A DNA stretch of 64,000 nucleotides, from positions 40,443-104,442 of the forward strand of contig SCTZ01000200.1 of NCBI GenBank assembly GCA_004297765.1. Reading direction: 5' to 3'. Below the pieces are notes generated by a model. That model did not search any database. It was not told the DNA's origin and saw nothing but the letters and a program-made list of their open reading frames with translations. Each line of letters opens with the position of its first letter. Within the stretch, counting starts at the first letter, position 1. A program made the translations under genes and the position numbers. Shown here piece after piece: positions 17,907 through 24,649 of the stretch. This DNA is from Chloroflexota bacterium. GTDB taxonomy: Bacteria > Chloroflexota > Dehalococcoidia > FW602-bin16.

Positions 17907-19532
17907 ATGCCGGATGTCTTCGCCCAACTCGGAGTGCTCCTGACCGTGGCATGGGCCGCCGCAGCTCTGGCGGTCGTACTGCGCGTTCGGCTCCCATCCG
18001 TTCCTGCTCGAGCGGCAGACGCGGTCTTCCACTTGGCGGCCATTGGCTACTGCATCATGCTCGCCACACTGGCTATCATGCGGCACGATAGCCTGCACAG
18101 CCACGCCTTCGACCTGGGCATCTTCGACCAGATCCTCTGGAACTCCGCCCGCGGCCACGTGATGGAGGCGTCCCTGATCTGGGATAAGGCAACCTTTCTT
18201 GGCAACCACATCTCACCAACTTTGCTGCTCTTCGTCCCGGCTTACTGGCTGGTCTCCGATCCACGCGTCCTCCTGATAGGCCAGGCCATCGCCCTGACGT
18301 CGGGCGCATTGCCGATCTACTGGTACGCTCGACGCGAATCGAGCAATCGGAGTTTGGCGCTCGTTCTCGCTCTCAGCTACTTCACGTATCCAGCGACCCT
18401 GTACGTCAATCTGTTCGATTTCCATGAGTTCGCCCTCGCCGTGCCTTTCATGTCCTTCTCCATCTACTTCATGCTCACAGGACGCTTTCTTGCCTTCGCG
18501 GTTTGTGCGCTACTCCTGCTGGCGACAAAAGAGGATCTGGGCGTCCTCGTCTCAATGTTGGGGCTGCGCGCGCTCTTGTTCCACCGGCAGTGGCTGGTGG
18601 GGCTGCCGCTCGCCATCGGCGGTGTGGTGTGGACGGCCCTGGCGATCTCGACGCTCATTCCAGCCAAGAATCCATCCGGCATCTATCCCTTTGAAGCATT
18701 GTATGCGTATCTAGGGGCCAGCCAACTAGACATCCTGGTGAATCTGATCACGCATCCCATGCGCTCTCTGCAAATCATCTTCGAGATGCCGAAGATCGAA
18801 TACGTGCTGCGCCTGCTCGTCCCGCTGGGTTTGCTTCCGCTGGCAGGACTCACCATGTGGCCCCTGGCACTGCCGACACTGGCGTATCTGCTGCTTAGCG
18901 CCGATCCCGGTCGGTACTCCATCACGACGCAGTACAGCGCCCCATTGGTACCGCTCTTCTTCTTCGCCGCCGTGGAGGGATGCAGGCGAATCATCCAACG
19001 CGATTTCGTGGCACAACGGGCCGTCACTCTCTCCTCGCTCGGAGATCAGCCTCACCCATCCACCGCTCGCCGTGTGAGGCTAATCACTCGCGTGGACAAC
19101 CGCAGAACCCTAACCGCCGGAATAGCCGCTATCATCGCCATTAGCGCCCTGGGCAGCTACGTGTTGCACGGACCAGGTCTCTTCGCCCAGGGCTTCGACC
19201 CCAAAGAGTTCCAACTGACCGACCACGCTCGCACCGGACTGCAGCTCATGAAGGAGATCCCCGCCGACGCCAGTGTGATCGCCCAGGGCGATCTCGTTCC
19301 ACAGCTATCCGGTCGTCGCGTCATCTATATGTGGCCATGGATCGGAGAGCTATCGACGATCGACTACATCCTGTTGGATCAGCAGGGCAACAAGTATCCG
19401 CTGGATGATCCAGAGGAGAACTACTTCCGGTCTGTCGAGGAGATGCGAGCTAACACCGACTTCGTGGTCGAGCGCGAAGAAGATGGCTACCTTCTCTTGC
19501 GGAACATCCAGACATCCAAACCCGCGAAGTAG
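17907..19532 (+). CDS. DUF2079 domain-containing membrane protein
   Basis: RHDSLHSHAFDLGIFDQILWNSARGHVMEASLIWDKATFLGNHISPTLLLFVPAYWL is DUF2079-like. Confidence 0.85.
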   Translation: MPDVFAQLGVLLTVAWAAAALAVVLRVRLPSVPARAADAVFHLAAIGYCIMLATLAIMRHDSLHSHAFDLGIFDQILWNSARGHVMEASLIWDKATFLGNHISPTLLLFVPAYWLVSDPRVLLIGQAIALTSGALPIYWYARRESSNRSLALVLALSYFTYPATLYVNLFDFHEFALAVPFMSFSIYFMLTGRFLAFAVCALLLLATKEDLGVLVSMLGLRALLFHRQWLVGLPLAIGGVVWTALAISTLIPAKNPSGIYPFEALYAYLGASQLDILVNLITHPMRSLQIIFEMPKIEYVLRLLVPLGLLPLAGLTMWPLALPTLAYLLLSADPGRYSITTQYSAPLVPLFFFAAVEGCRRIIQRDFVAQRAVTLSSLGDQPHPSTARRVRLITRVDNRRTLTAGIAAIIAISALGSYVLHGPGLFAQGFDPKEFQLTDHARTGLQLMKEIPADASVIAQGDLVPQLSGRRVIYMWPWIGELSTIDYILLDQQGNKYPLDDPEENYFRSVEEMRANTDFVVEREEDGYLLLRNIQTSKPAK

Positions 19533-19727: not shown

Positions 19728-19756
19728 TTGACCGGTCGCGCCTATGAGGATATAAT
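19728..19756 (+). promoter_or_regulatory. sigma-70 promoter
   Basis: TTGACC (19728-19733), 17-bp spacer, TATAAT (19751-19756). Confidence 0.75.
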
Positions 19757-19762
19757 CAGTCC

Positions 19763-19908
19763 GTGTATGGTTCCCTGACGCAGTCGACCCGTTGGTTTTC
19801 AGGAACGCGGCTCGCAATCGTGTTGGCGCGTGGAAAGGGACAGCTAGCAACATGTCGGAACCAGAGCAGCCGCCCTCTGAACACACATATAGAGGGCGGC
19901 TTTCTTTG
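19763..19908 (+). ncRNA. candidate orphan structured small RNA (about 145 nt)
   Basis: sits between the strong promoter and an intrinsic terminator; internal pairings TGGTTCC/GGAACCA and CGTGTTG/CAACATG; no convincing ORF. Confidence 0.55.
19869..19908 (+). terminator. Rho-independent terminator
   Basis: gccgccctct (19869-19878), 12-nt loop, agagggcggc (19891-19900), then tttctttg. Confidence 0.85.
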
Positions 19909-19966
19909 TGTATCAGGCTGAGCTAGTGATCTATCACATGGCGTCAGGGTGTTCTGAAAGCCGGTT

Positions 19967-20003
19967 CTTTGTCATTCTGAGAGCCGCAGCGCGAAGAATC
20001 CGC
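19967..20003. repeat. partial copy of the MITE-like repeat (see 25543..25719)
   Basis: ctttgtcattctgagagccgcagcgcgaagaatccg, nearly identical to part of the 25543 element. Confidence 0.75.
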
Positions 20004-20116
20004 ACCCCACGACCCGCGTGCTGTACGGGGTCCGGATCTTTCGACCTGCTCGCCTCACAGTAATGGCGAGGGGTGCGGGTGTGGATAACTGCCCGCGCTA
20101 CAGGGTGAGGTGACGG

Positions 20117-21511
20117 TTGATCGACCAATTGCATGAGGCCTGCGGTATCTTTGGCATTTACGCGCCCGGAGTAGACGTGGCGCGCACTACCTTCTTTGGG
20201 CTGTTCGCCCTGCAACATCGCGGGCAAGAGAGCGCGGGCATCGCCGTGGCGGGGGACGGAGTGCGCGTGCACAAGGGCATGGGACTGGTGTCCCAAGTTT
20301 TCACAGAAGACTCGCTGGCCGGACTACGTGGGATCAGCGCGATTGGACACAACCGCTATTCCACGACAGGCTCCTCACGCTACGCCAACGCCCAACCGAT
20401 CCTGACAGAAAGCCACCTGGGCCGCTTCGCCCTGGCCCACAATGGCAATATCTTCAACGCCGGCTACCTGCGCAACCGGCTTTCGGGCAACGGCTGCGAG
20501 TTCAGCTCCACTAGCGATTCAGAGGTCATCGCTCTGCTGATCGCGGCCTCCTACGGCCACGATTGGGTGAGCAAGATCCAGCATACTATGCCGCAACTGG
20601 CCGGGGCGTACAGCCTGGTTCTCTTAACCGATCGAGAGTTGATCGGTGTGCGCGACCCGTTAGGCGTGCGCCCCCTGTGCATTGGCCGTCACGAGGCCGG
20701 TTGGGTGCTGGCTTCGGAGAGCTGCGCCCTGGATACTATCGGCGCGCATCTGGTGCGCGAGGTGGAGCCCGGCGAGATCGTTATCATCGACGAGAATGGT
20801 CTGCACAGCGTCCTTGGTCAACAAAGCGAGCGTAAGGCTCTCTGTATCTTCGAGTACATTTACTTCGCACGACCGGACAGCCAGATCAACGGACGTCTGC
20901 TCTACGAGACGCGAGAAGCCATGGGTGCGGCGCTGGCTAGAGAGTACCCGGTGCCTGCGGATATCGTGATGGATATTCCCGACTCGGCCACCGCGGCCGG
21001 GATTGGCTATGCCCGGCAATCGGGCGTGCCGTTCAGCACCGGTCTGATCAAGAACCGCTACATCGGTCGCACCTTCATCCAGCCGGACCAGCGTATCCGA
21101 AAGATGGGGGTCGAGCTAAAGTTCAATCCGTTGCCGGGCGTCCTATCGGGCAAGCGCGTCGTGGTGGTAGACGATAGCATCGTGCGCGGCACGACGACCT
21201 TGCCGGTGATCAACCTGCTGCGCAAGGCTGGGGTCAAAGAGGTTCACCTGCGCATCTGCGCTCCTCCGATCACGCATCCCTGCTATTTCGGCGTGGATAT
21301 GGCCACGCGGGCCGAGCTTATCGCCGCGCGCCACAGCGTCGAGGAGATCGCTCGGCACGTGGGTGCCGACAGCCTGGGCTACCTCAGCCTGGAGGGCCTA
21401 ATACAAAGCGTCTCCTTGCCCCAGGAGGTGTTCTGTCTGGCCTGCTTCACGGGGCAGTATCCGATTCCGGTCCAGCTAGAGATGGACAAGTTGGCCTTTG
21501 AGCATGTGTAG
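20117..21511 (+). CDS. purF: amidophosphoribosyltransferase
   Basis: short propeptide then CGIFGIYAPG catalytic Cys; VVVVDDSIVRGTTT PRPP-binding motif. Confidence 0.97.
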   Translation: MIDQLHEACGIFGIYAPGVDVARTTFFGLFALQHRGQESAGIAVAGDGVRVHKGMGLVSQVFTEDSLAGLRGISAIGHNRYSTTGSSRYANAQPILTESHLGRFALAHNGNIFNAGYLRNRLSGNGCEFSSTSDSEVIALLIAASYGHDWVSKIQHTMPQLAGAYSLVLLTDRELIGVRDPLGVRPLCIGRHEAGWVLASESCALDTIGAHLVREVEPGEIVIIDENGLHSVLGQQSERKALCIFEYIYFARPDSQINGRLLYETREAMGAALAREYPVPADIVMDIPDSATAAGIGYARQSGVPFSTGLIKNRYIGRTFIQPDQRIRKMGVELKFNPLPGVLSGKRVVVVDDSIVRGTTTLPVINLLRKAGVKEVHLRICAPPITHPCYFGVDMATRAELIAARHSVEEIARHVGADSLGYLSLEGLIQSVSLPQEVFCLACFTGQYPIPVQLEMDKLAFEHV

Positions 21512-21514
21512 AGG

Positions 21515-22153
21515 ATGGACGTTGTGACCGTCGAACAGTTCCCCATCGGCGTCCTGATCTCCGGACGCGGCTCGAACCTGCAGGCGATCCTTGACGCGAC
21601 GGAACGGGGCGAGGTAGCCGCGCGCGTGGTGGCGGTCATCAGCAATCGCGAGGACGCTTTCGGCCTGGAGCGTGCGCGTTGCCGCGGCATCCCGGCGGTA
21701 ACTTTCCCGCGACGCGACTATGCCACACGCCAGGAGCAGCAGGCCGCCATGGCCGCCGAGCTACAGCGCCGTGGGGTACGGCTCGTGGTTCTGGCAGGAT
21801 TCGATCAGGTCGTTGGAACCGCTCTCCTGCGGTCGTTCCCCAACGCCATCATCAACGTCCATCCTTCCCTTCTGCCAGCCTTCGGGGGTGGGCTGCATGC
21901 GCAGCGTGAGGCGCTGGATCACGGCGTGAAAGTCAGCGGCTGCACCGTGCATTTCGTCAGCCAGGACGTCGACGCTGGACCCATCATTCTGCAGGCGGCC
22001 GTGGAGGTTCGCGACGACGATACGGAGGAGAGCCTCTCCAACCGCATCCTCGCCCGGGAGCATCGGCTGTTGCCCAGGGCCGTCGACCTGATCGCGCGGA
22101 ACCGAGTGCGCGTGGAGGGTCGGCGCGTCTTGATTGCACCCAACCAAGACTGA
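21515..22153 (+). CDS. purN: phosphoribosylglycinamide formyltransferase
   Basis: VLISGRGSNLQAI...IINVHPSLLPAFGG...GCTVHFV...DAGPII. Confidence 0.96.
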   Translation: MDVVTVEQFPIGVLISGRGSNLQAILDATERGEVAARVVAVISNREDAFGLERARCRGIPAVTFPRRDYATRQEQQAAMAAELQRRGVRLVVLAGFDQVVGTALLRSFPNAIINVHPSLLPAFGGGLHAQREALDHGVKVSGCTVHFVSQDVDAGPIILQAAVEVRDDDTEESLSNRILAREHRLLPRAVDLIARNRVRVEGRRVLIAPNQD

Positions 22154-22221: not shown

Positions 22222-23769
22222 ATGCGAGCCATCATCAGCGTATCCGACAAGACGGGTCTCATCGACCTGGCCAGCGGACTGGCCAATGAGGGATGGGAGA
22301 TATTCTCCACGGGCGGCACGAAGAAGGCCCTGGTCGACGCCGGGGTAGCCGTCCACAGCGTCAGCGACGTGACCGGGTTTCCCGAGATCCTCGAGGGGCG
22401 CGTGAAGACGCTACATCCCCACATTCACGGGGGCATCCTGGCCAAAAAGGACGATGCCGAACATGTCCGCCAACTGGCGGAGCACGGCATCGAAGCCATC
22501 GATCTGGTGGTAGTCAACCTTTATCCCTTCGCTCAGACCGTAGCCAGGCCCGACGCGACCCTGAGCGACGCGCTGGAGAACATCGACATCGGCGGACCAA
22601 CCATGATTCGGGCGGCCGCCAAGAACTTCCCCTCGGTCCTGATCGTGGTCGATCCGGCCGACTACCCCGAGGTTCTGCGCCGCATCACAGAGGGCAGCGT
22701 GGATCTCGAGATGCGCAAGATACTGGCGCAGAAGGCGTTTCAGCACACGGCGACCTACGATACTGCCATCGCTCACTACCTGCGGCCCGCGCAGCAGTTG
22801 TTCCCGCCTGAGCTAACCTTAGCCATGTCCAAAGTGACGGACCTGCGCTACGGTGAGAACCCGCATCAGTCCGCTGCGTTTTACCGTGAGAAGGGACGAC
22901 CGGTCACAGGATTGAGCGTGGCCGCCGCGACCCAACTGCACGGCAAGGAACTGTCGTACAATAACATTCTGGATCTGGACGCCGCCATCGGCATCGTGAA
23001 CGACTTCGGCGCACCCACGGTGGTTGTGGTCAAGCACCACAACCCCTGCGGACTGGCCAGCAACGCCGACCTGACCGAAGCGTACCGACGCGCACTGGCC
23101 GGCGATCCCATCTCAGCTTTCGGCGGCATCGTGGGATTCAACCGCGTAGTCGATGCTGTGACGGCCGAAGAGATCGCCCGCACCCACTACGACGTGCTGA
23201 TCGCGCCGGGTTACGAAGAGGCCGCTCTGGAGCGGCTGAAGCGCAAGCGCGACATGCGCATTCTGGCCGTGGGCGATGGCGTGACCGTGCAAGAGCCGAA
23301 CGAGTCCACACCGCGGCTGGAGGTCCGTCAGGTCTCCGGTGGGTACCTCATCCAAACCCGCGACGAGATCTCGGACGACGACATTCAACTCCAGCCCGTG
23401 ACCGCGCGGCGGCCCACGCTCGAGGAGATCACCGACCTGATCTTCGCCTGGCGGTCTGTGAAGCACGTGAAATCCAACGCCATCGTGCTGGTCAAAGAGG
23501 GCGCCCTGGTCGGCGTAGGAGCCGGTCAGCCCAACCGTGCGCTGAGCGTCGAGATCGCCGCCAAGCAGGCCAAAGATCGTGCCGTCGGCTCGGTCCTGGC
23601 CTCGGATGCCTTCTTCCCGTTCCCGGACGGCGTAGAGCTAGCCGCCCGAGCCGGCGTCACCGCCATCATCCAACCCGGCGGCTCCCTCCGCGACGAAGAA
23701 GTCATCCGCATCGCCAACCGCAATCGCCTGGCCATGGTCTTTACGAGCAGGCGGCATTTTAAGCACTGA
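22222..23769 (+). CDS. purH: bifunctional AICAR formyltransferase/IMP cyclohydrolase
   Basis: RAIISVSDKTGLIDLA...EGRVKTLHPHIHGG...DLRYGENPHQSAAFY...KHHNPCG. Confidence 0.97.
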   Translation: MRAIISVSDKTGLIDLASGLANEGWEIFSTGGTKKALVDAGVAVHSVSDVTGFPEILEGRVKTLHPHIHGGILAKKDDAEHVRQLAEHGIEAIDLVVVNLYPFAQTVARPDATLSDALENIDIGGPTMIRAAAKNFPSVLIVVDPADYPEVLRRITEGSVDLEMRKILAQKAFQHTATYDTAIAHYLRPAQQLFPPELTLAMSKVTDLRYGENPHQSAAFYREKGRPVTGLSVAAATQLHGKELSYNNILDLDAAIGIVNDFGAPTVVVVKHHNPCGLASNADLTEAYRRALAGDPISAFGGIVGFNRVVDAVTAEEIARTHYDVLIAPGYEEAALERLKRKRDMRILAVGDGVTVQEPNESTPRLEVRQVSGGYLIQTRDEISDDDIQLQPVTARRPTLEEITDLIFAWRSVKHVKSNAIVLVKEGALVGVGAGQPNRALSVEIAAKQAKDRAVGSVLASDAFFPFPDGVELAARAGVTAIIQPGGSLRDEEVIRIANRNRLAMVFTSRRHFKH

Positions 23770-23961: not shown

Positions 23962-24078
23962 TGTTCTCAGAGACAATTGGCTACCGGACTACCAACCGCT
24001 ATTGACGTTCCCCGGCAGCGACAGTACACTGCAGCCATCAGAACAACCTGGCGAGCTGATATCTTGTATTGTGCGCCC

Positions 24079-24471
24079 GCCCGATCCTGTTGGTCAGGTT
24101 CGCGCCCAGTGGTCAAGGTCCATCCTTCCGCTGGGACGAAGGGCGGCGCTTCCTACTACAAGTATGCTAGCAGTCTGGTGTTCGAGAACGCCAAGGAAGT
24201 CCTGACTGAGGCAACGGTAATTATCGACGGGAGCGGCAGCAGGGAGTTCCCGCGGCAACTACAGTCCTATTTGAAGCGGCGCATCAACGATCCAGGACAG
24301 CGCGCTATCCGCAAAGTCAAGTTGCAGGACTCGTCCCGCAACAACCTGGTTCAGTTGGTGGATATGGTGGCATGAGCGATCCATCGCAGCTTCGGCTGGA
24401 AACAGGATGCCGACCTATACCGTCCTATCGTGAGTCACCGTGAGATGCGGGTACAATTCTGGCCCAAATGA
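24079..24471 (+). pseudogene. DUF3800-like gene remnant with internal stop
   Basis: YYKYASSLVFENAKEVLTEATVIIDGSGSREF...KLQDSSRNNLVQLVDMVA*AIHRSFGWKQDADLYRPIVSHREMRVQFWPK*; in-frame TGA at 24373-24375 within the conserved DMVAGAI region; 5' end missing. Confidence 0.75.
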
Positions 24472-24649
24472 GTCGACCTGCCCCCTAGCCCTTCCGCAGA
24501 AGGACACGCACACCGTACGGTGACAATTCGGGAGGCAGGTCATTTCCACCTCATATGATAGCCAACTTGTTTACAGTTGTCAACGGTCAGGCCGGCGCAT
24601 ATCCGGTCGAGAACTCCTGAAGGCAAAGCAAGAAGTCGCAGTTATCCGC

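Follow-up and report, generated by a model that had tools for sequence, protein, structure and literature searches.

Upstream of purF in the genome of a Chloroflexota bacterium, a near-consensus promoter is followed by a strong intrinsic terminator, and the question raised by this locus is whether it encodes an RNA of its own or belongs to the gene behind it. A sequence-only reading of the window (the whole stretch of 64,000 nucleotides that was analyzed) had described positions 19728 to 19908 as a candidate orphan noncoding RNA, either a free small RNA (sRNA), possibly a divergent relative of 6S RNA, or a purine-operon attenuator. We conclude, with a probability of roughly two in three, that the element represents the promoter and 5′ leader of the purF-purN-purH operon in a Dehalococcoidia-like Chloroflexota bacterium, with a terminator that is best read as stopping transcripts early in a constitutive or weakly regulated manner. 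The “orphan” RNA is most likely a prematurely terminated 5′ piece of the purF leader; it is not a new RNA class, and the finding is a modest one.

The gene for amidophosphoribosyltransferase, purF, occupies positions 20117 to 21511 of the forward strand and begins with TTG (NCBIfam TIGR01134, 519 bits); purN (21515-22153; TIGR00639, 226 bits) and purH (22222-23769; TIGR00355, 641 bits) follow it, and all three matches are above the respective cut-offs. The sigma-70-type promoter, on the same strand at 19728-19756, consists of TTGACC (19728-19733), a 17-nt spacer, and TATAAT (19751-19756), and matches the consensus at 11/12 positions. Within 4 kb, two sites score at least 9/12, compared to a mean of 1.2 in shuffled sequence, and this promoter is the top scorer; the near-consensus promoter of the sequence-only reading is thus upheld, above chance and at the place given for it. 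Exact copies of TTGACC-N16-18-TATAAT number nine in the organism's own 5.6-Mb genome, compared to none for the reversed pattern, which indicates that this is a genuine promoter type in this genome. In the 450 nt before purF of the window there is no second promoter of at least 8/12, and the sole good one is that at 19728-19756, 360 nt upstream of the gene.

Relatives indicate which gene such a promoter serves. We fetched loci by PurF orthology; of the 107 distinct purF upstream regions obtained, almost all belong to Chloroflexota of the same class. The exact motif TTGACC-N16-18-TATAAT is present in 51 of the 107, always on the purF strand, and in none of the reverse-complement or reversed controls of these regions. 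It lies 3 to 210 nt before purF, and in 49 of the 51 cases within 80 nt, although promoter-to-purF distances are rough estimates, the start codons having been placed by extrapolation from protein alignment. Using a threshold of at least 10/12, a promoter is found in 88 of the 107 upstream regions (27 in the reverse-complement control), and in 66 of these 88 it is within about 40 nt of purF. The promoter of the window shares with the class purF promoters (TTGACC-N17/18-TATAAT) its hexamers, spacing, strand, and place upstream of an orthologous gene, but it is 360 nt from purF, whereas most of theirs are 3 to 80 nt away. Given the strand of the motif in relatives and the lack of a second candidate of at least 8/12 within 450 nt upstream of the gene, we read the promoter at 19728-19756 as most likely that of purF(-purN-purH), a reading drawn from sequence comparison.

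A recurrent purF promoter of this type, often close enough to the gene to produce a leaderless mRNA, is a testable statement about a little-studied class. The −10 hexamer lies 3 to 12 nt before the purF start codon at loci L037, L039, L119, L123, L125, and L137, and such spacing would leave the purF mRNA without a leader in many members of the class. Our literature search found no report on leaderless transcripts in Dehalococcoides.

The terminator of the window, at 19868-19908 on the forward strand, is formed by arms AGCCGCCCTCT (19868-19878) and AGAGGGCGGCT (19891-19901), which make 11 Watson-Crick pairs in a GC-rich stem around a 12-nt loop, followed by the tail TTCTTTGTG, T-rich to 19908. 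Its folding energy is −21.7 kcal/mol (z = −6.9), and its pairs form with probabilities of 0.89 to 1.0 when the whole leader is folded. An automatic terminator scan with a loop limit of 8 passed over this hairpin. Each strand of the window contains a single hairpin with at least 10 perfect pairs and at least 5 T in 8, and ten shuffles of 64 kb yielded none. The perfect GC-rich stem and T-tract reported earlier are therefore real, with a stem of 11 bp in place of the 10 first counted, and the T-run does end about 210 nt before the TTG start of purF at 20117. By the same criterion, the terminator is absent from the promoter-bearing purF leaders of relatives, and nothing resembling either it or the sequence between promoter and terminator was found in their upstream regions. 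This terminator and a repeat insert set the purF leader of the window apart from those of the class.

Sequence comparison shows that the promoter corresponds to purF promoters of relatives in type, strand, and order, and it also shows the terminator, the inserted repeat, and the lack of a comparable terminator where relatives have a promoter-bearing leader; from these we propose the following course of expression. Transcription would start near 19763. The terminator would release a share of the transcripts, stopping near 19905, as a leader RNA of about 140 to 150 nt, and polymerases that read through would cross the inserted repeat into purF, so that both short and long transcripts would be made. 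The terminator would then act mostly as a fixed ceiling on purF expression and not as a metabolite-sensing switch. Premature intrinsic termination is reported as one route by which 5′ UTR RNAs form in Escherichia coli (PMC7815308). The likeness to those cases lies in a promoter, a short leader RNA, and premature termination before a downstream gene; the leader RNA of the window differs in being predicted from sequence alone and in having no known regulator.

Several observations weigh against this leader model. Unless something relieves it, a strong terminator that separates a promoter from the only target known for it is costly, and no relief mechanism was found. Only the promoter corresponds to those of relatives, as the body of the leader shares nothing detectable with their leaders. 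Furthermore, TTGACC promoters exist elsewhere in the genome, so sequence type is in itself no proof of orthology, and purF could instead have a cryptic promoter located past the terminator.

The alternative that survives best is that the leader is a regulated attenuator, in which a purine-related signal (a ligand, a protein, or translation) toggles the terminator at 19868-19908 and so controls purF. We consider this rather unlikely. It gains from the fact that the first purine-synthesis gene has a strong terminator placed in its leader, and from precedent, as purine genes elsewhere are attenuated by guanine and PRPP riboswitches (PMC5912903). What the locus shares with those systems is limited to a purine-synthesis leader that contains an intrinsic terminator, since the leader in the window has no detected aptamer, antiterminator, or conservation. 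On the candidate strand, no aptamer family of purine, PRPP, ZTP, or other known riboswitches matches up to an E value of 5. A weak SAM-VI match was set aside: it falls within purF on the opposite strand and reaches 17 bits, where the cut-off is 57.5.

The body of the leader (19763-19867, forward strand, its start predicted from the position of the promoter) has an unremarkable structure and folds no better than dinucleotide shuffles of itself (z = +0.8 to +1.1). Duplexes between the body and the two terminator arms, the possible antiterminators, were equaled in 444 and 473 of 1,000 shuffled bodies and, stated as a range, in 44 to 49% of shuffles; this test covers RNA pairing, and relief that depends on a protein or the ribosome is outside its reach. 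The earlier proposal that purines regulate the locus is thus unsupported, with neither a known aptamer nor an antiterminator better than chance. Relief of the terminator mediated by a protein or the ribosome is possible. Translation of the leader itself finds little encouragement: an open frame from the GTG at 19763, the predicted first base, runs for 52 codons through the terminator, but 12% of shuffles are equally open, and we rejected it as a leader peptide or leaderless upstream ORF given codon usage that is not coding-like. The relatives' promoter-bearing leaders, which are free of such a terminator, also count against attenuation. A more specific version, in which an undescribed cis-regulatory leader restricted to this order or family (an attenuator or dual-function sRNA) senses purine status and gates purF, is in our view quite improbable; dual use as an sRNA or regulated attenuation is possible but unsupported.

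The two internal pairings cited earlier as signs of an RNA structure both exist but are weak evidence, given the positive z-scores of the body and the probabilities of the pairings themselves. TGGTTCC at 19768 pairs with GGAACCA at 19857 with a probability of about 0.5 and is matched in 29 of 2,000 shuffles under a definition chosen after the pairing had been seen, and CGTGTTG at 19819 pairs with CAACATG at 19848, including one G-U pair, with a probability of about 0.02.

An independent sRNA gene, some 145 nt long and equipped with a promoter and terminator for itself while purF is transcribed from another promoter, would have to possess a promoter of the class purF type, and no other promoter of at least 8/12 is available to purF. 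Its body is no more structured than shuffles, and neither a homologue nor a second copy was found. We regard this explanation as decidedly improbable, despite a promoter-to-terminator spacing typical of sRNAs and a terminator that lies 210 nt before purF. No homologues of the body were detected beyond chance in 393 genomes of the class or in the 107 purF upstream regions; DNA matches to the candidate region are only 18 to 30 nt long, the level expected by chance for this number of genomes. The genomes compared are, at their closest, of the same class, with a best PurF identity of about 70%, and this distance is the main weakness of our verdict where conservation of the body is concerned. As to the original choice between a free orphan sRNA and a purine-operon attenuator, the second fares better, as a strong terminator does lie within the purF leader, whereas orphan status is weakened by a promoter that has the type and orientation of class purF promoters and has no good competitor before the gene. 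More generally, a promoter-terminator pair seen in one genome can mimic an orphan sRNA, and relatives can reveal that the pair belongs to the gene that follows, as its promoter and leader.

That the element is a divergent 6S RNA is very improbable. Its length is similar to that of 6S RNA (RF00013), and the pairing of TGGTTCC with GGAACCA could serve as a closing helix; however, it matches neither Rfam 6S nor a class-specific model, and a true 6S RNA is present elsewhere in the genome. The Rfam scan that had been proposed as a check gave no match at gathering thresholds anywhere in the region, nor up to an E value of 5 on the candidate strand. The canonical 6S RNA of the organism is at G000:C227:21772-21948 (70.7 bits), downstream of an aspS-like gene. 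We trained a class-specific covariance model on four 6S RNAs from the class. It scores 150 to 172 bits on these source sequences, as its construction leads one to expect, but no more than 8.2 bits in the candidate region, on 43-nt palindromes. Bacterial small SRP RNA (RF00169) likewise has no match in the candidate region, and the SRP RNA of this genome is at G000:C60:36651-36750 (75.2 bits); this agrees with the earlier statement that no SRP signature is recognizable here. With assembly contamination estimated at 9%, the contigs carrying the 6S and SRP RNAs are likely, not certain, to derive from the same organism. Using strict filters, Rfam 6S was found in only 4 of 294 genomes of the class, this one included, and 6S RNA may be divergent or missing in the class.

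It is scarcely credible that the terminator belongs to the upstream glycosyltransferase-like gene (17907-19532) and sits past the purF promoter by coincidence. Although that gene is on the same strand and scans found no other terminator between 19532 and the promoter, the hairpin follows both the stop codon, by 335 nt, and a near-consensus promoter, and would thus act on purF transcripts anyway.

The purF leader of the window owes about a quarter of its extra length (94 nt) to an interspersed palindromic repeat, REP- or MITE-like, inserted at 19964-20057 (no strand assigned). This repeat, of the type GTCATTCTGAG...CGAAGAATC, has about 70 further matches in the genome, most of them 77 to 95% identical. 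The insertion does not explain where the 105-nt body or the terminator came from. At one relative's locus (L050), an insert-like palindrome likewise lies in an unusually long purF leader of 210 nt. Another stretched leader, of 164 nt, is that of L131 (genome G137), which contains a long GC-rich hairpin (CCCCCCATGA...TCATGGGGG).

Beyond the purine genes, the window contains an Rfam match to the DUF3800-IX RNA (RF02968) at 24471-24541 on the reverse strand, with 59.7 bits, above the cut-off. Near it, a 132-amino-acid open reading frame on the forward strand (23977-24375) may be a putative DUF3800-like remnant.
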